From contig NZ_BOMQ01000026.1 of NCBI RefSeq assembly GCF_016862275.1, positions 62,001-126,000 of the forward strand: 64,000 nucleotides of DNA, read 5' to 3'. Made by a program: the position numbers and the translations under genes. Below, one piece after another: positions 138 through 12,280 of the stretch. Within the stretch, counting starts at the first letter, position 1; each line of letters begins with the position of its first letter. The notes below the pieces were generated by a model. That model ran no database searches and was not told where the DNA came from. It saw nothing but the letters and a program-made list of their open reading frames with translations. The stretch comes from Actinoplanes nipponensis. Its GTDB lineage: Bacteria > Actinomycetota > Actinomycetes > Mycobacteriales > Micromonosporaceae.

Positions 138-1526
138 TCAGCGGCCGCTCCGGGTCCGGGCCCGGGCCGCCCGGCGGCCCCTGAGGTAGGCGCGCGGACC
201 CGCCAGCATGCCCTTGCGGTTGGCCGTGAGCAGTTCCCGCGGGAAGTCGTCGCGCAGGGTCGACACCCGCAGGCTGTCCTTGCTGGTCAGGTCGCGCAGC
301 GCGCCCGGGGCCAGCTTGAGCAGCGGCCACAGCAGGCCGGGCCGGCGCAGCAGCAGGCTGGTGTAGGCGGCGGTCAGCCCGGCGCCGTAGCCCACCATCT
401 GCTTGTGCAGGCCCTCGAGGTCCCGCCGGTGGTAGTGGTGGGTGACCGCGGTGGGCTGGTAGACGATGGTGCCGCCGCCCAGCAGCACCTGGGTGAAGGC
501 CAGCGTGTCCTCGGAGCCCATCGCCGGGGTGCCGGCGCCCAGCGCGGTGTCCCAGCCGCCGATGCGCTCGATGACGCCGGGCCGGAAGGTCATGTTCGCG
601 CCGGTGCCGAACGGCGGCAGCGGGTACAGCGGGCTCTGCCGGTGCGCGGTCGCCGGGCCGAACAGGTCCGGGGTGAAGCCGCGGCCCTTGCTGTGCCCGC
701 CGAACTGCTCGAACCACAGCTGCGCCCGCGTCTCCAGCTCGGCCGGCACGATCACGCCGGAGACCACGTCGGCCTCCGGGTGGTCGGCCAGCGCCCGGGC
801 CACCTCGGCCAGCCAGTGCACGTCGGCGTACTCGTCGTCGTCGATCCAGGCCAGGATCTCGCCGGGCGCCGCCGCCACCGCCGCGTTGCGGGCGAAGGAC
901 AGGCCGGCGCGGGGCTCGAGCAGGTACTCGACCGGGCCGCGGCGGGCCGCCGAGCGGACCACCTCGGCGGTGGCGTCGGTGACCGGGGCGTTGTCGACGA
1001 CCAGGATCCGGAAGTCGGGGTAGGCCTGGGCGAGCAGGCTGTCCAGGCAGCGGGCCAGCGCGCCGGGCCGCTCCCGGGTGCAGACCACCACGGTGACCGG
1101 CGGGGCGGCGGCCAGCACCGCGCGGCGCCGGGCCAGGAAGGCCGGCTCGGCCGCCGGCGTGATGCCGTCGATCGGCAGCGTGCTCAGCGCCAGCTCGGCG
1201 AGCCGGGGCGCCAGCGCCGGGCCGAGCTCGGCGGTGATCGCGGCGGCCAGCTCGGCGGGCCGCAACCCCTGCTCCGGTACGGCGGTCAGCACGGCCCCGA
1301 GCGGCTCGGTGAACAGCCGCACCAGCACCCATGCCTGGAGCACGCGGCGCCCGTCCGCGCCCACCCCGGCGACCGTCGGCAGCGGGTCGGACAGCTCCAG
1401 GTCGAGCAACGTGGCGGGCAGCGCCTCCCCGCGGGGCTCGAACGCGGGCGCGGTGATCATCTCGTCGGTGCGCTGGGCCGGCACCCACACCTTGCCGTTC
1501 ACGCCGGCCTGGTTCGCGGCGGTCAT
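138..1526 (-). CDS. Family 2 glycosyltransferase
   Basis: A 462-aa cytoplasmic or membrane-associated enzyme expected to transfer a sugar from a nucleotide donor, probably in surface polysaccharide assembly. About 155 N-terminal residues of unknown role precede a GT-A domain opening with VTVVVCTRERP. The metal-binding motif is WIDDDEY, and GTGANMTFR with a later GSEDT forms the acceptor/catalytic region typical of GT2. A hydrophobic stretch (SLLLRRPGLLWPLLKL) near the C-terminus may contact the membrane. ATG at 1526 overlaps the stop of the upstream glycosyltransferase by 4 bases, so the two are translationally coupled. The frame stays open further upstream, but that is a shadow of the neighbouring gene. 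Substrate unknown. Confidence 0.88.
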   Translation of the reverse strand: MTAANQAGVNGKVWVPAQRTDEMITAPAFEPRGEALPATLLDLELSDPLPTVAGVGADGRRVLQAWVLVRLFTEPLGAVLTAVPEQGLRPAELAAAITAELGPALAPRLAELALSTLPIDGITPAAEPAFLARRRAVLAAAPPVTVVVCTRERPGALARCLDSLLAQAYPDFRILVVDNAPVTDATAEVVRSAARRGPVEYLLEPRAGLSFARNAAVAAAPGEILAWIDDDEYADVHWLAEVARALADHPEADVVSGVIVPAELETRAQLWFEQFGGHSKGRGFTPDLFGPATAHRQSPLYPLPPFGTGANMTFRPGVIERIGGWDTALGAGTPAMGSEDTLAFTQVLLGGGTIVYQPTAVTHHYHRRDLEGLHKQMVGYGAGLTAAYTSLLLRRPGLLWPLLKLAPGALRDLTSKDSLRVSTLRDDFPRELLTANRKGMLAGPRAYLRGRRAARARTRSGR

Positions 1527-2529: not shown

Positions 2530-3546
2530 TCAGTCCTCGCGGGTGGCGCGGGCCTGCAGCGCCTTGATGTCGTCGGTGCGGCGGGTGCCGACGTCGTCGC
2601 GGCGCAGCCCGCGGTTGAGGTGCGCGACGTGCTGGCGGGGGTCGCCGGCCGGGGTGACCCCGGCGACGGGCGGCCGGTTGACGACCTTGTTGAGCGCGCG
2701 TACGGGCGGGGCGGCGGCGGGCGTGGCGGTCGGGTGCTGGTGCACGATGACCCCGCCGGCCCGGCTGCCGCCGCGGCGCTGGCGGCGCATCCGGCCGTAC
2801 TCGCTGAAGATCGTGCGCAGCACCCGGAAGCCGTCGCGGAAGGTGTTCAGGTTGCTCTGGCCGTGGATGCGGGCGTGCTCGATGCTGCCGACCTCGCCGA
2901 CCCGCATCCCGTCGGCCGCCGCCCGGATGTTGATCATCGTCTCGATCTCGAACCCGTCGCCCCACAGCTTGCTGCCGTCGGTGGGCCGGGGCAGGGTCGG
3001 GTCGGGCAGGGCCAGCGTCGGCACGACGCGGCGCCAGAAGGCGTTGTAGCCGTAGCAGAGGTCGGTGAAGCGGGTCCCGAACAGGACGTTCACCACCAGG
3101 TTGAGACCGTCGTTGCCGAGCTTGCGCAGCGGGGTGATGTCGTGGCTGTGCCCGCCCTTGTCGAAGCGCGAGCCCTTGACGAAGTCGGCGCCGGCGACGA
3201 GCTCGGCGACGAAGCCGGGGATCTCGGCCGGGTCGGTCGAGCCGTCCGCATCGATCATCACGATGATGTCGCTCGTGCAGGCGGCGAAGCCGCAGGCCAG
3301 CGCGTTGCCCTTGCCGGTACGGGTCTGCTGCACGATCACCACGTCGGGGCGCAGCTCGCGGGCCACGGCCACCGTCCGGTCCAGCGACCCGCCGTCGACC
3401 ACGATCACCTCGTCGATGCCGTCGGGGAGCTTGGCGAACACGTGCGGGAGGTTCCGCTCTTCGTTCAGGGTCGGAATCACGACGCTTACGGTCGGTGACG
3501 ACTGCCCATTACTCGGTGTGTTGCCCGAGGTCGTGGAAAGCTGCAT
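2530..3546 (-). CDS. Family 2 glycosyltransferase, dolichol-phosphate-mannose-synthase-like
   Basis: A 338-aa protein and the first gene of the leftward operon. Key parts are SVVIPTLNEERNL at the N-terminus, VDGGSLDRT, the DADGSTD metal motif and KGSRF, an order typical of polyprenyl-phosphate glycosyltransferases. The last 75 residues are basic and low in complexity, without the transmembrane pair of some relatives, so the enzyme is probably peripheral at the inner face of the membrane. It likely moves a sugar from a nucleotide donor to a lipid carrier or growing glycan. ATG at 3546 lies about 75 bases downstream of a good promoter (3629-3656), which should drive the whole glycosyltransferase operon. 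Confidence 0.88.
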   Translation of the reverse strand: MQLSTTSGNTPSNGQSSPTVSVVIPTLNEERNLPHVFAKLPDGIDEVIVVDGGSLDRTVAVARELRPDVVIVQQTRTGKGNALACGFAACTSDIIVMIDADGSTDPAEIPGFVAELVAGADFVKGSRFDKGGHSHDITPLRKLGNDGLNLVVNVLFGTRFTDLCYGYNAFWRRVVPTLALPDPTLPRPTDGSKLWGDGFEIETMINIRAAADGMRVGEVGSIEHARIHGQSNLNTFRDGFRVLRTIFSEYGRMRRQRRGGSRAGGVIVHQHPTATPAAAPPVRALNKVVNRPPVAGVTPAGDPRQHVAHLNRGLRRDDVGTRRTDDIKALQARATRED

Positions 3547-3628
3547 GTCGGTCCCTTCGGGGGCGGCAGATGCGACGTAATCGGCGTTTTCCGGGGGCAG
3601 GAACGCAGGTCGCCCGCTTCTGCCGCCA

Positions 3629-3656
3629 AATCTAGCAACACGCTACGTAGCGTCAA
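3629..3656 (-). promoter_or_regulatory. Promoter of the glycosyltransferase operon with internal palindrome
   Basis: Read on the minus strand, TTGACG (3656-3651) and TAGATT (3634-3629) are separated by 16 bases, close to the housekeeping-sigma consensus. A perfect 12-base palindrome, cgctacgtagcg (3641-3652), fills much of the spacer and touches the -35 box, an ideal place for a repressor. Predicted transcription starts near 3622, leaving an untranslated leader of about 75 bases before ATG at 3546. Confidence 0.65.
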
Positions 3657-4195: not shown

Positions 4196-4334
4196 GCTGC
4201 TTCAGCTGGGCCGAGCTGGCTCCGCCTTTCGCCTCCTCGCCTTTCGCTTCTTCGCCTCCCGCCTCTTGGCCTCCCGCCTCTTCGCAGCTCGGTCGAGCTG
4301 CCTTCCTCGCCTCTCCGTCTCTCCGCCGCGCCGG

Positions 4335-4569
4335 CCGAGCCGGGCCGATCCGGGCCGAGCCGAGCCGATCCGGGCCGAGCCGAGCCGATCCGGGCCGAGC
4401 CGAGCCGATCCGGGCCGAGTCGGGCCGAGTCGAGCCGATCCGGGCCGAGCCGAGTCGAGTCGAGCCGAGCCGAGCCGGGCCGAGCTGGGTCGAGCCGAGC
4501 CGAGCGGAACCGGGCCGAGCGGAACCGGGCCGGGCGAAGCCGGACCGAGCCGGGCCGAGCGGAGCCGGG
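4335..4569. repeat. Array of 47 pentamers in perfect register
   Basis: From 4335 to 4569 the sequence divides into 47 consecutive 5-base units, mainly CCGAG, CCGGG, CCGAT and TCGAG, without one insertion or deletion. Inside it, three exact 20-base copies (CGGGCCGAGCCGAGCCGATC) lie at 4351-4410. The units grow more diverse toward the right (CGGAA, CGAAG, CCGGA). Five is not a multiple of three, so all frames look open and give 5-residue repeats such as RAEPS; I do not regard it as coding. Confidence 0.9.
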
Positions 4570-4820
4570 CCGCTGCGGGGCCACCGCTGGTCGTGCCGGG
4601 CGCTGCGGGGCCGCGCTTTGGCCGTGCCCGGTCGACTCAGGCCGCCGCCTGCCGTGCATGGCCGTGCCGGACGGTTTCGGACTCGCCCTCGCGGTGGGGG
4701 TCGTGCCGGCCGTCTCGGGACACCCCTGGCGCGCCGGGCCGCCCCTGGCCGTGCCGGGCGCTGCCGACCCGCGCTCCGGCCGCGGGGGTCGCTAGGGCGG
4801 CCCCCTCGCGGTGCTGGGCT

Positions 4821-5018
4821 TGTCGGGTGGTTTCGCGCCGACCGCGCCGGATCGCGTCGGGCCGGCGTCCTTGCGGTACCGGGGCGTGCCGGGTGGCTTC
4901 GCGCCGGCCGCGCCGGATCGCTTCGGGCCGGCGTCCTCGCGGTGCCGGGCCGTGCCGGGTGGCCTCGCGCCGGCCGCGCCGGTCGTCTCAGCCCGGCCCC
5001 TCGCAGCGCCGGACCGCC
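4821..5018. repeat. Three tandem 66-base units
   Basis: Copies begin at 4821, 4887 and 4953 with TGYCGGGTGGYYTCGCGCCG. The first two are close matches over their full length and the third decays after about 40 bases. Sixty-six bases is 22 codons, so one plus-strand frame reads as a 22-residue repeat (GGFAP-AAPDR-GPAS). There is no upstream ribosome binding site or recognisable protein, so coding is unlikely. Confidence 0.75.
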
Positions 5019-8822: not shown

Positions 8823-9353
8823 GTGGACACCACTGATTTCGACACGATGAGCGAGGAACAGCTCCGGCAGCGGGCCCTCGCGGCCGGCCTGCTCGGGGCG
8901 GCGGACATGCGACGCGACGACTTGGTCGCCACCCTGCGCGACGGCGCGATGACGCGGTCGGAGGAACGGCTGGTGGTCGGCAACGACGTGGTGGCGATCG
9001 GCCGCGCCCGGCTGCGCAAACACGTGGTGAGCGAGGACGTGCAGATCACGGTCACCGTGCGCCGCGAGGAGCTGCGGCTGGAGCGGGCGGCCGTCCCCGC
9101 TCATGAGCAGTCCCTGGTCGGGGATCCCGACGTGTTCGGGCCCGCCGAGGAGTTCGCGACCGCCGACGGGGGCGTCATCTTCGCGGTCACCCTGCACGAG
9201 GAGCGCCCGGTCGTCACCACCGAGATCGTGCCGGTGGAGCGGGTGCGGCTGGTCAAGGTGGTGCACACCGACCAGCGCACGGTCTCCGGCGAGGTCCGCA
9301 AGGAACGCATCGAGGTCACGCTCCCCGGCGAGGCGCCGGCGACGGTGGAGTGA
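8823..9353 (+). CDS. YsnF/AvaK-type (DUF2382) stress protein
   Basis: A 176-aa cytoplasmic protein. Residues 1-50 form a helical segment (SEEQLRQRALAAGLLG...) resembling the small DNA-binding-like helix repeats before some DUF2382 domains. The rest is the DUF2382 domain: EERLVVGNDVVAIGRARLRKHVVSEDVQITVTV and later ERPVVTTEIVPVERVRLVK, with the alternating acidic/basic beta-strand pattern of the family. Such proteins are linked to general stress but have no proven activity. GTG at 8823 has GGAGGCAGA upstream. It appears to be transcribed alone. Confidence 0.82.
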   Translation: MDTTDFDTMSEEQLRQRALAAGLLGAADMRRDDLVATLRDGAMTRSEERLVVGNDVVAIGRARLRKHVVSEDVQITVTVRREELRLERAAVPAHEQSLVGDPDVFGPAEEFATADGGVIFAVTLHEERPVVTTEIVPVERVRLVKVVHTDQRTVSGEVRKERIEVTLPGEAPATVE

Positions 9354-9808
9354 CGCGACCGGCTGTCATGGACGCCACCGAGTGACCACGCAGAGTCAGA
9401 TAGTCGGCGTGCGAGGCCAGATATAACCGCGTTGCACCCCAGGCCGTACGGACAGTGACGACTTTGCGGGTGATCCGTACCACTGCGACGAGTCGGACAT
9501 CGGTGCTCCGTGCCCGTCCGCCCTGGTCACGGCCGGGCCGGGCGGGTCTCGCCGGGTTCGTCGGGTCCATGCCGCAGTTGGTCGGCCTGGGCGAAACCCG
9601 CGGGGTGGGATATGCCTGAGGTGGTGGATGTGGCGCGGCCCTGATCGTTCGGTCGGATCGGGGTGGCCGCTCGGCCGGCGTCACGCTGGCTCGGCGGTCA
9701 GTTGACCCTGGGTAGCGGTGCGGTAGATTTGGTGACAGAAGCGAGCGAGCCAGGCTTCTCCCCCAAAAGCCCCATACGCTCCGCATCTGCCACCCCGAAG
9801 GAACCGCC
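9354..9808. other. 455-base intergenic region carrying a promoter
   Basis: No gene is seen. It is somewhat richer in A+T near 9400-9440. It contains the promoter at 9702-9729 and the leader of the peptide-SpeD-GNAT unit downstream. Confidence 0.5.
9702..9729 (+). promoter_or_regulatory. Promoter of the peptide-SpeD-GNAT unit
   Basis: TTGACC (9702-9707) and TAGATT (9724-9729) are 16 bases apart, nearly the same boxes and spacing as the glycosyltransferase promoter. Transcription would start near 9736 and give a leader of about 70 bases before the 39-codon gene at 9809. Confidence 0.6.
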
Positions 9809-9928
9809 ATGCCGACCACCGCTCCCCCCGAAACCACGAAGCGTGACGACACGCGGTCACCCTCGGTGAGAAGCCGGGATCCCAAGCCGCCCGTCCGGCC
9901 CCGGCCCAGCACCGCGCCCTCGTGGTGA
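9809..9928 (+). CDS. 39-residue Pro/Arg/Thr-rich peptide
   Basis: The ATG at 9809 is preceded by GAAGGA about 6 bases upstream. The frame encodes MPTTAPPETTKRDD... and ends ...RPSTAPSW. It is rich in Pro (10 of 39), Ser/Thr and Arg/Lys, and has no hydrophobic segment, so it is not a secretion signal. It is the first reading frame after a good promoter and lies 44 bases before the SpeD-like gene. It could be a precursor peptide for modification, a leader peptide that controls the genes behind it, or a chance frame. I favour a real short gene because promoter, ribosome binding site and order agree. Confidence 0.5.
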   Translation: MPTTAPPETTKRDDTRSPSVRSRDPKPPVRPRPSTAPSW

Positions 9929-9972
9929 CCTCGCACCGCTCCCGATCCCCGCACCCGGAAGGCCCCACCGAC

Positions 9973-10323
9973 ATGCTGGATTTCAAGGACCTCGCCCCGG
10001 CCATCCACCGCCAGCGCATGGTGGTCGAGGGATACCCGACGTTCGTGATCACGGACGAGCACATCAAGGACTACCTGCAGAAGCTCTCCGACGTGACCGA
10101 GATGATCACGATCATCGAGCCGGTCACCCACGTCAGCGACCTCTACGGCTGGGCCGGCTGGATCCACTGGGAGACCTCCGGCGCGCACTTCTACTCGTGG
10201 GAGCGCCCGATCTCGTTCTTCAGCGTCGACATCTACACCTGCAAGGCCTTCGACCCGCAGACGGTCATGGACTTCACCAGGGACTACTTCCGGACCACCG
10301 AGATCGTCGCCAAGGAGTTCTGA
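9973..10323 (+). CDS. Divergent SpeD-like protein (AdoMet decarboxylase fold)
   Basis: A 116-aa protein with the size and C-terminal signature of the short bacterial S-adenosylmethionine decarboxylase family (SpeD/SpeH), pyruvoyl enzymes that cut themselves before a Ser. SVDIYTC (Cys90) matches the conserved DVYTC active-site Cys. Ser69 in ETSGAHFY aligns with the Ser that becomes the pyruvoyl group, but the usual Glu-Ser is Thr-Ser and the His five residues on is Tyr; a His sits at 72 instead. It may therefore use another substrate or not self-process. ATG at 9973 has GGAAGG upstream; a GTG at 9922 is possible but lies in the peptide gene. No spermidine synthase is nearby. The stop is 2 bases before the next start, so the two are coupled. 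Confidence 0.68.
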   Translation: MLDFKDLAPAIHRQRMVVEGYPTFVITDEHIKDYLQKLSDVTEMITIIEPVTHVSDLYGWAGWIHWETSGAHFYSWERPISFFSVDIYTCKAFDPQTVMDFTRDYFRTTEIVAKEF

Positions 10324-10325
10324 GC

Positions 10326-11195
10326 ATGGCCCCCACGACGACCGCGCGGTACGACCTCGACCCCGCCACCGTGCGGCGGGTCACCGCGGCGTTCCTGGCC
10401 GCGCACCCCGGCCGCGGCCGTTTCGTCACGGCGGTCGTCGGGCCGGACAGCGACCTGGCCGCGGTCGGCCGGTCCCTGGAGCGCCAGGTCTTCACCGAGG
10501 CGTTCGGCAACGACGCCGCGGTCATGGCCGCCGAGTACGGCCCGTACGAGGCGGCCAGCCTGTTCTTCCTGGTGATCGACCGGCGGCGCGGCGTCCCGGC
10601 CGGCGTCGCCCGGATGATCGAGAGCCGCGGCGCGGGCGTCAAGACCGTCGACGACGCCCCGCAGCACATCGGCGCCGACGTCGCCACCATCCTCGCCGCG
10701 CACGGCATGACCGGCGAGAAGGTCTGGGACTGCGCCACCCTCGCGGTGCTGCCGCAGTACCGCGGCGGCCGATCGTCGCTGCTGGTCAGCACGATGATCT
10801 ACCGCACCTTCCTGGTCCTGGGCCGGCGCCACGGCGTGCGGCACGCGGTGTCGATGCTCGACCGGGGCGCCTACCGCAACCTGCGGATGATCGGCGTGCC
10901 GATGCGCACGCTGGCCGGCTCCGGTCCGTTCGAGTACCTCGGCTCGGCCGAGAACCGGGCCGTCCACATGGACTTCCCGGCCATCGAGCAGGCCGTGCGT
11001 GAGCAGGCCGCCCGGATGCGCCGGGCGGCGCGGCCCGGGCTCACCGCGCTGCGCCGCGACGGCCTGGGCAAGCTGCTCAAGCGCCGGGTCGCGGCCGGGG
11101 TGTCACGCCGCATCGGTACGGGCCGCGACGTCGACGACCACATCGTCGTCGTGCCCGGCGAGCAGGGCGTTTTCCGCCTCGACCCGATCGGCTGA
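10326..11195 (+). CDS. GNAT acyltransferase of the LuxI/FeeM (N-acyl amino acid synthase) type
   Basis: A 289-aa protein. The N-terminal half has the look of autoinducer or N-acyl-amino-acid synthases (VFTEAFGND, EYGPYEAASLFFLVID, GVPAGVARMI). The second half carries a GNAT acyl-carrier-binding segment (LAVLPQYRGGRSS), then GVRHAVSMLDRGAYRNL and MIGVPM. Family members join an acyl chain from acyl-ACP or acyl-CoA to the amine of an amino acid or, in LuxI, of AdoMet. ATG at 10326 follows the SpeD-like stop by 2 bases, with AGGAG inside the preceding gene. Pairing with an AdoMet-decarboxylase homologue suggests the latter makes the amine that is acylated; this is inference. The C-terminal 70 residues are basic and unassigned. 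Confidence 0.65.
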   Translation: MAPTTTARYDLDPATVRRVTAAFLAAHPGRGRFVTAVVGPDSDLAAVGRSLERQVFTEAFGNDAAVMAAEYGPYEAASLFFLVIDRRRGVPAGVARMIESRGAGVKTVDDAPQHIGADVATILAAHGMTGEKVWDCATLAVLPQYRGGRSSLLVSTMIYRTFLVLGRRHGVRHAVSMLDRGAYRNLRMIGVPMRTLAGSGPFEYLGSAENRAVHMDFPAIEQAVREQAARMRRAARPGLTALRRDGLGKLLKRRVAAGVSRRIGTGRDVDDHIVVVPGEQGVFRLDPIG

Positions 11196-11290
11196 TGCTC
11201 GACCCGGGCGTTTGTCCGGCCGGGGCCGAGGGTACGTCGCCCTGCAACCGTGCCGGGGGCGAGCGCGCGGTGACGGAACAGGGGGCGGCA

Positions 11291-12280
11291 ATGCGGACGC
11301 TGGGCGGGCGGTACCAGCTCGAGCAGCGCATCGGCATCGGGGGAATGTCCGAAGTGTGGCGTGGGCACGACCGGGTGCTCGACCGGCCCGTGGCGGTCAA
11401 GATCATGGCGCCCGCGGTCGAGGGCACCCTGGGCGAGGTCAACGGCGTCGACCTGGTGCGCACCGAGGCGCGCTCGGCCGCCCGGCTGGCCCACCCGAAC
11501 GTCGCCGGGGTGCACGACTTCGGCACCTCGTCGGCGCCCGGCCGGGAGGTCCCGTACATCGTCATGGAGCTCGTGGACGGCCAGACGCTCAGTGAGCACC
11601 TGGTCGCCGGGCTGTTCGACTGGCGCATCGCCGTCCGGGTCTGCGCCGAGGTCGCGGCCGCGCTGGCCGCCGCGCACGCCGAGCACGTCGTGCACCGCGA
11701 CATCAAGCCGGCCAACATCATGCTCACCCCGGCCGGCGCCAAGGTCCTCGACTTCGGCATCGCCGCGGCGGTCGGCAGCCACGACCCCGACCCCGACGGC
11801 CCGGTCATGGGCACCCCGGCGTACGTCGCCCCGGAACGCTTCGAGGGCCTGCCGGCCACCCCGGCGTCCGACATGTACTCCCTCGGTGTGCTGCTCTACC
11901 ACTGCCTCTCCGGCCGGCTGCCCTGGCAGGCGGCCAGCCACACCGAGTTGGTGAACGCCCAGCGCCACCGCGACCCCGACCCGCTGCCGGTCATCGAGGG
12001 CATGGCGCCCGAGGTGCTCGACCTGTGCTCACGCTGCCTGCACCGCGACCCGGCCGAGCGGCCCACCGCCCTGGTGGCCGCGCTGCTGCTGGCCGAGGCG
12101 GTGGACGCCCGGGTGTACGTGCCGCTGATGGACGTCAGCGCGATGATGCCGCGCCCGTCGCGGGTGTCGCCGTGGGACGAGCGCGCCGCCGAGGCGCCGA
12201 CCGACATGGCGCTGCCGGTCGACCCCGACCAGGACACCAGCTACCTGGCCGACCGCCCGGGCCGGCACCGCGCCGGCTGA
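11291..12280 (+). CDS. Soluble Ser/Thr protein kinase (Hanks type)
   Basis: A 329-aa protein that is almost entirely kinase domain. The Gly-rich loop is IGIGGMSEVWRG, the ATP-anchoring Lys is in PVAVKIM, the catalytic loop is VVHRDIKPANIM, the metal motif is DFGIAA, and the activation segment ends in YVAPE. All catalytic residues are present. Unlike PknA/PknB types it has no transmembrane helix or PASTA domains; after about residue 265 only a short acidic, Pro-rich tail remains. It therefore acts in the cytoplasm. ATG at 11291 with a GGGGGC site is used; GTG at 11270 in the same frame is possible. The gap from the acyltransferase gene is 95 bases. Targets unknown. Confidence 0.85.
   Translation: MRTLGGRYQLEQRIGIGGMSEVWRGHDRVLDRPVAVKIMAPAVEGTLGEVNGVDLVRTEARSAARLAHPNVAGVHDFGTSSAPGREVPYIVMELVDGQTLSEHLVAGLFDWRIAVRVCAEVAAALAAAHAEHVVHRDIKPANIMLTPAGAKVLDFGIAAAVGSHDPDPDGPVMGTPAYVAPERFEGLPATPASDMYSLGVLLYHCLSGRLPWQAASHTELVNAQRHRDPDPLPVIEGMAPEVLDLCSRCLHRDPAERPTALVAALLLAEAVDARVYVPLMDVSAMMPRPSRVSPWDERAAEAPTDMALPVDPDQDTSYLADRPGRHRAG

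Follow-up and report, generated by a model that had tools for sequence, protein, structure and literature searches.

A SpeD-like gene and a LuxI/FeeM-like acyltransferase gene form a conserved adjacent pair with a putative role in signal synthesis

A gene encoding a small protein of the AdoMet decarboxylase (SpeD) fold and a gene encoding a LuxI/FeeM-like GNAT acyltransferase form a real, conserved two-gene unit, the two genes adjoining in Actinomycetota, Saccharibacteria, and a small number of further lineages; in many lineages outside Micromonosporaceae and Cryobacterium, a sensor kinase gene or a gene for a multi-transmembrane GGDEF-EAL protein lies beside it. The unit was encountered in the window, by which we mean the whole 64,000-nucleotide stretch of Actinoplanes nipponensis DNA under analysis (Table 1). 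Since the two genes travel together across several phyla, often beside membrane sensor genes, they may serve to produce and perceive a chemical signal that has yet to be described. Its most likely, putative role is the synthesis of an acylated amine signal, and that the two genes constitute a two-enzyme signal-synthase module is a reading to which we give about an even chance.

Table 1. Positions of the features of the window referred to in the text
Feature	Position	Strand	Basis
Further glycosyltransferase genes of the operon	1523-2479 and 138-1526	-	
Family 2 glycosyltransferase gene that opens the operon and shares promoter and leader with the speD unit	2530..3546	-	Pfam
Second of the genome's two copies of the promoter motif, before the glycosyltransferase operon	3627..3656	-	Pattern scan, leader homology
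Promoter motif TTGACNCTNNGT(N8)GSTASATTTG of the speD-GNAT unit	9702..9731	+	Pattern scans
39-codon ORF; leader frame common only to the window and L001	9809..9928	+	tblastn, leader alignment
Ribosome-binding-like GGAAGG	9957..9962	+	Sequence; 10 bases 5' of the SpeD-like ATG
SpeD-like ORF, 116 aa, AdoMet decarboxylase fold	9973..10323	+	Pfam, AlphaFold2, Foldseek
Predicted pyruvoyl Ser, residue 69 of the SpeD-like protein	10177-10179	+	Sequence register
LuxI/FeeM-like GNAT acyltransferase, 289 aa	10326..11195	+	AlphaFold2, Foldseek, weak Pfam Acetyltransf_5
Ser/Thr protein kinase, downstream neighbour of the pair	11291..12280	+	Pfam Pkinase 5.1e-46

An earlier note on this DNA had described the first gene product as an AdoMet-decarboxylase-fold protein and the second as a LuxI/FeeM-like GNAT, and had proposed structure prediction of both enzymes; this was run, and both folds were recovered. 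For the SpeD-like protein, the ORF, the Pfam AdoMet_dc profile (38.5 bits, E 1.6e-9; cut-off 25), and the predicted structure agree, the top Foldseek match of its AlphaFold2 model (pLDDT 95.8) being the AdoMet decarboxylase of T. maritima (1tmi; E 4.2e-7, TM 0.75, 15% identity), with TM 0.75-0.76 over 1tmi/1tlu. All 40 members of alignment A1 match AdoMet_dc at E <=0.1, and against the NCBIfam equivalog for AdoMetDC, TIGR03330, the window protein scores 15.5 bits, far under the cut-off of 75.65. The GNAT ORF begins 2 bases past the SpeD-like stop, and this position and the predicted fold bear out the earlier description. Its AlphaFold2 model (pLDDT 92.2) retrieves FeeM (2g0b, E 6.9e-7), then LasI, BjaI, and RpaI, with MesI and EsaI also among the Foldseek matches, which places the protein in the LuxI/FeeM-type GNAT fold at 13-15% identity to FeeM, LasI, and BjaI. 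The GNAT stays under the Pfam and NCBIfam cut-offs of the families it touches, the Acetyltransf_5 match being weak; Pfam Autoind_synth gave no listed match to it and none at E 0.001 in its genome, and at E <=0.1 this profile matches 6 of 38 GNAT relatives (best 3.9e-5). PDB sequence searches with both proteins and both alignments returned no meaningful match, and fold searches alone gave matches. The note had also seen no polyamine gene nearby, and this holds for AdoMet_dc, the family to which the check was confined, of which the window's genome has no second protein at E 0.001. Among 10 genomes of the genus, this kind of AdoMet_dc protein occurs only in the window's, two others having different AdoMet_dc proteins. 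A phage origin of the SpeD-like gene was considered and rejected, viral_contigs and phage records holding no relative; plasmid relatives number only three, 30% identical, on Nostoc, Acaryochloris, and Halioglobus plasmids.

The evidence that the two genes belong together comes from gene order. A scan of one genome per species returned 116 SpeD-like relatives, and in 73 of the 80 analysed (the best 80 of the 116) tblastn finds a GNAT gene directly downstream on the same strand. The earlier note had reasoned that the unit would be a chance grouping if the two genes were rarely neighbours elsewhere and the 39-codon frame were not conserved; for the two enzyme genes, this adjacency, together with co-occurrence in a genome survey, rules such a grouping out. 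With the window, L110, and L111 added, there are 74 same-strand downstream pairs in 83 records, 3-221 bases separating the match ends. Seven loci have no tblastn GNAT match (L024, L033, L036, L050, L052, L060, and L066). In L024 and L033, the gene after speD is a diverged GNAT (21% identity, put in alignment A2 by position), and a GNAT profile built without these two rows still recovers both (E 1.3e-7 and 2.6e-12 among 9 proteins). The GNAT profile finds no relative among the genes beside speD in L036, where a different, convergent ORF adjoins, or in L052, L060, and L066. The survey covered 396 genomes of the window's phylum at a profile threshold of E 1e-10, at most 11 SpeD-like and 6 GNAT candidates being scored per genome among the matches listed. 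The SpeD-like profile was found in 4 genomes and the GNAT profile in 3, all within the four, the fourth (G363) carrying a divergent SpeD type; with the window's genome excluded, 2 of 2 fall within 3 of 395 (~4e-5, calculated by hand). The GNAT of G275 passes the threshold when the diverged rows are in the profile and scores 35 bits without them. The pair is thus rare (~1% of the 396 genomes surveyed) and patchy. SpeD and GNAT distances covary over 32 loci (Mantel r 0.50, 0 of 5000 permutations), for which shared species history alone could suffice.

Several loci show speD in other company. In the Bdellovibrionales and Micavibrio MAGs L052 (5354-7563) and L066 (5348-7626), the genes after speD encode an unassigned protein and an enzyme of the aminotransferase fold in place of a GNAT, the best NCBIfam match of this enzyme being GntC, far under cut-off. 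Within the same genus as the window, L106 (878-1848) carries a different SpeD-like gene (TTSNINVH motif) that overlaps by 4 bases an upstream 183-aa gene with no Pfam match, possibly a second decarboxylase-plus-partner unit. On the Acaryochloris plasmid (L118, 4905-6354), the 30%-identical SpeD-like gene comes after a gene for a 350-aa GNAT-family protein of a different type. Neither the L106 nor the L118 partner gene is matched by the GNAT profile.

The wider neighbourhood was surveyed by tblastn with domain queries at 80 loci and the window (81 in total), 13 sensor, regulator, and kinase proteins being Pfam-checked, and a histidine kinase or GGDEF/EAL neighbour was found at 47 of the 81. All 21 Geodermatophilaceae loci have an EAL-GGDEF gene upstream on the same strand, its EAL match ending <=340 bases before speD. 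Such genes accompany 12 of the 15 other actinobacterial, Acidimicrobiia-type, and similar MAG records, convergent downstream in 9 and upstream in L032, L068, and L080; the misses are L029 and, at contig ends, L039 and L064. Saccharibacteria-type loci, a grouping of our own that includes L041 and L062, have a histidine kinase in 12/13 cases (the miss, L041, is on a cut contig) and an upstream response regulator in 12/13 (the miss, L069, begins at speD). The Mycolicibacterium sphagni locus (L026) also carries a histidine kinase (Pfam HisKA_7TM, 43.1 bits; cut-off 28.6), whose 7TM region is homologous to the N-terminal region of 9 of the 12 Saccharibacteria-type kinases, the kinases of L024, L033, and L036 giving no match. 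Among the 24 Micromonosporaceae loci, window included, a Ser/Thr kinase lies on the same strand in 8 and on the opposite strand at ~2.3 kb in 4, a GGDEF-EAL gene is present in 1 (L005), and no neighbour was assigned in 11; the sole one assigned to L012 is a response regulator 3.7 kb off. In the window itself only a Ser/Thr kinase neighbours the pair, with no histidine kinase or GGDEF/EAL gene, and this downstream same-strand kinase recurs in 7 related loci. No kinase, GGDEF/EAL, or Ser/Thr kinase neighbour was assigned in Cryobacterium (0/3), L050, L052, L060, or L066. Two extra genomes add variants of the arrangement, with the order SpeD / GGDEF-EAL / GNAT in G275 and an EAL gene adjoining the pair in G372.

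GGDEF-EAL proteins and kinases are common genes, and in genomes chosen for carrying the arrangement there are 6-36 EAL matches (14 genomes) and 6-20 HisKA matches (12 genomes) per genome; examples such as 24 EAL in 4.6 Mb or 7 HisKA in 0.8 Mb correspond, by hand calculation, to ~0.5-1% per kb of flank. Lineages of the Geodermatophilaceae type may each represent one inherited event, and the differing orientations and sensor types argue for several such events. When the transmembrane parts of the GGDEF-EAL partners were compared, they separated into several groups that resemble one another little or not at all, and the comparison revealed no single receptor domain common to the sensor neighbours. 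The earlier note had spoken of a possible biosynthetic system; since sensor genes neighbour the pair elsewhere, its likely purpose moves toward that of a signal synthase. In the scheme that we favour, the SpeD-like proenzyme would cleave itself before Ser69 to generate a pyruvoyl group, the mature enzyme would decarboxylate an amino acid rather than AdoMet, the GNAT would acylate the resulting amine from acyl-CoA or acyl-ACP, and the N-acyl amine would exit the cell and be sensed by the neighbouring receptor.

The recurrence of sensor genes across lineages, as seen with sensor, regulator, and kinase domain queries, speaks against the alternative that the N-acyl amine is a structural lipid, surfactant, or antibiotic whose production the sensors only regulate. 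We consider this rather unlikely, although FeeM, the closest fold, is by its PDB title an N-acyl amino acid synthase, and although the unit shares its promoter motif with a glycosyltransferase operon and has a sulfotransferase gene near it in the window, as an envelope pathway would. The consensus-like promoter that had been placed ahead of the unit is borne out by TTGACC-N16-TAGATT at 9702-9729, there being 2 such sites on both strands of 9300-11400 and a mean of 0.1 in shuffles. At <=2 mismatches, the 30-base motif has two copies in the 8.95 Mb genome (reversed control pattern, 0), and the leader sequences that follow the two copies can be aligned up to and including the start codon. Since the unit and the glycosyltransferase operon share this two-copy motif, surface-glycan genes are likely to be co-regulated partners of the unit in the window's genome; the spacer of the 3627-3656 copy holds a palindrome, CGCTACGTAGCG, which is a possible operator, and the direction of leader copying between the glycosyltransferase and speD units is one that we infer.

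Among relatives, an exact-pattern scan of 24 loci (L001-L023, L043) found the motif ahead of speD in L001-L005 and L011, as in the window, and at speD in none of the remaining 18. The genomes of 20 relatives gave a motif match in 15 and two matches in five (controls, 0). The two-site arrangement of L001-L004 is like the window's by coordinates, the gene behind the distal site having been checked by its leader for L001, and L014, L021, and L023 have the distal site only. Six of the 20 genomes have only a two-mismatch match, on contigs other than speD's, to judge by their lengths. Across 61 genomes of the family, a search at <=1 mismatch found the motif in 2, the window's own genome and one taken as G062 again; G056 and G062 give identical coordinates and were counted as one genome seen twice. 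A recurrent two-mismatch variant ends GCTACGTTGG or GCTAGGTTGG in G066, G067, G069, G075, G076, and G077 (L088, L090, L095-L097, and L099). The window also encodes a DUF2382 protein (8823-9353), flanked by the speD unit and by a gene whose GDSL match is weak and under cut-off, and holds tandem repeats at 4325-4982, with ~50 degenerate copies of the 5-base GCCGA and 3.3 copies of a 66-base unit.

The catalytic step assigned to the SpeD-like protein depends on its active site. Residues S69, H72, Y74, and C90 are invariant in 81/81 SpeD-like sequences, Thr68 and Lys91 are each present in 78/81, and the consensus of the 81 sequences in this region reads GWAGWxHWETSGAHFYxWExPxxFFSVDxYTCKxF; the invariance of the four residues argues that the family is not decaying. 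In the T. maritima enzyme, S63 provides the pyruvoyl group, and His68 is named essential together with Cys83 in the available text of PMC10407285. The T. maritima sequence is ESHLTIHTWPE...C, with His68 at +5 from Ser63. By sequence register, Ser+5 is Tyr74 in 81/81 members of the window family, which have His at Ser+3 instead, and the S63/H68/C83 set of class 1b SpeD is therefore incomplete, with Ser and Cys kept and Tyr at the His68 position. The three 30%-identical plasmid relatives have Tyr at Ser+5 too, but Ser or Ala at +3; Phe stands at Ser+3 in the divergent SpeD of G363 and, together with Tyr at Ser+5, in that of L112. As alternate side chains of a beta strand face the same side, and residues 69-76 form one strand in the AlphaFold2 model, the His may have shifted two positions along this strand. 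A Pro is described as conserved in all bona fide AdoMetDCs, and a Gln, Thr, Phe, and Tyr as diagnostic of the SpeDC ornithine decarboxylase, in the accessible part of PMC10407285 (Fig. 8 for the latter). The Pro of T. maritima HTWP, which we would equate with the conserved AdoMetDC Pro, is replaced by Glu77 in the window protein, and a Gln seen in the SpeD-like protein of L106 corresponds, aligned by eye, to Ile64. The Tyr at the His68 position may alter processing or catalysis, or abolish either. The rebuilt active site, with Tyr at +5 and His at +3, makes a bona fide AdoMet decarboxylase unlikely, and our best guess is a putative amino-acid decarboxylase.

The same substitution could mean that the SpeD-like protein is a prozyme-like non-enzyme that binds or regulates the GNAT, or binds AdoMet for it, in which case the signal, perhaps an acyl-homoserine lactone, would be the product of the GNAT by itself. 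LuxI enzymes use AdoMet, and the SpeD-like genes of L052 and L066 have other genes, and no LuxI-like GNAT, as neighbours, both of which would suit such an arrangement. We nevertheless judge it unlikely because S69 and C90 are kept in 81/81 sequences, the predicted strand that bears the Tyr also has a His two positions earlier, and Autoind_synth is matched at E <=0.1 by only 6 of the 38 GNATs, the window protein not among them. The two-enzyme module remains our preferred reading.

The earlier note had further included a 39-codon gene with its own ribosome-binding site as a third member of the unit. The ORF and a ribosome-binding-like sequence, GAAGGAACCGCCATG, do exist, but the frame is not that of a conserved peptide: in a tblastn search of 83 records with its 39 residues, the window and one close relative, L001 (74% identity), are the only ones to carry it at the corresponding site, the other matches being scattered and of low complexity (best E 3e-4). 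Between these two loci, differences by codon position number 8/6/11 in the frame (8 synonymous and 10 non-synonymous codons) as against 4/2/12 in speD, giving no sign of selection on the peptide. The start region is homologous to the 5' end of the glycosyltransferase gene (start 3546), 6 kb away; since the two leaders align through the start codon, the ORF opens with a relative of the first codons of the glycosyltransferase, and this homology would explain the ribosome-binding site without a peptide function. On this evidence, the peptide is most likely spurious. That both enzymes act on it, as the note had offered as one option, is highly improbable despite the promoter and ribosome-binding-like site, and the peptide was rejected as a substrate because the frame is confined to the window and L001, begins like a glycosyltransferase, and lacks third-position bias.

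A tree suggests transfer between phyla. In this tree of 111 columns, with a short alignment, an arbitrary root, and many unsettled forks, M. sphagni and three Cryobacterium rows group with nine Saccharibacteria-type rows (97/82, starred), and Cryobacterium joins L038 (97/84, starred). The SpeD-like sequences so placed are those of L026 (M. sphagni) and of L044, L053, and L065 (Cryobacterium), and the presence of the 7TM kinase in M. sphagni as well gives the impression that the cassette moved between phyla as a whole. Actinobacteria are the phylum of known hosts of Saccharibacteria, which are ultrasmall and epibiont-type. One study (PMC6166536) reportedly concerns quorum sensing in a Saccharibacteria-host pair. 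We tentatively propose, with less than even confidence, a new signal class, namely an N-acyl amine made by a rebuilt pyruvoyl decarboxylase and a LuxI-like acyltransferase, read by 7TM histidine kinases or c-di-GMP enzymes, and horizontally shared between epibiont-type Saccharibacteria and actinobacteria. If true, this would be a signal chemistry without description in the literature searched, and would give orphan GGDEF-EAL proteins and 7TM kinases a ligand that can be tested. It would likewise supply a gene set for examining a possible chemical language common to Saccharibacteria and actinobacteria, and would extend the SpeD fold by one more activity, in this case with an altered catalytic residue.

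No description of the SpeD-GNAT pair was found in the open-licence PMC literature, and each half has known counterparts. Ornithine and arginine decarboxylases derived from SpeD have been described (PMC10407285, available text); in the main text of that paper, as far as available, the terms GNAT, acyltransferase, N-acyl, and Saccharibacteria are absent. The window protein resembles class 1b SpeD in its small fold, predicted pyruvoyl Ser, and catalytic Cys, and in being the sole AdoMet_dc protein of its genome, but its family has Tyr for His68 and an invariant His at Ser+3, and a GNAT and sensors adjoin it rather than polyamine genes. FeeM and the LuxI-type AHL synthases are the closest solved folds to the GNAT, which, on the other hand, is only 13-15% identical to FeeM, LasI, and BjaI and in our survey occurs only alongside the SpeD-like gene. 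Solitary luxI genes of Actinomycetota, without LuxR, have been reported, including a Salinispora luxI near the sensor kinase gene sasA and regulators, whereas elsewhere they neighbour sulfur, tRNA, redox, or secondary-metabolism genes (PMC13136126, in its available portion, where decarboxylase, Actinoplanes, and GGDEF have 0 occurrences). The nearest arrangement is that of 18 CPR LuxI homologues beside a sensory kinase, read as AHL synthases (PMC7567580, 2020; 'decarboxylase' has 0 occurrences in the main text as available), which share with our loci a LuxI-like gene adjoining a sensor kinase in CPR genomes and may overlap with the Saccharibacteria-type loci described here. The present unit differs from these pairs in that it includes a SpeD-like gene and also occurs in Actinomycetota, together with c-di-GMP enzymes.
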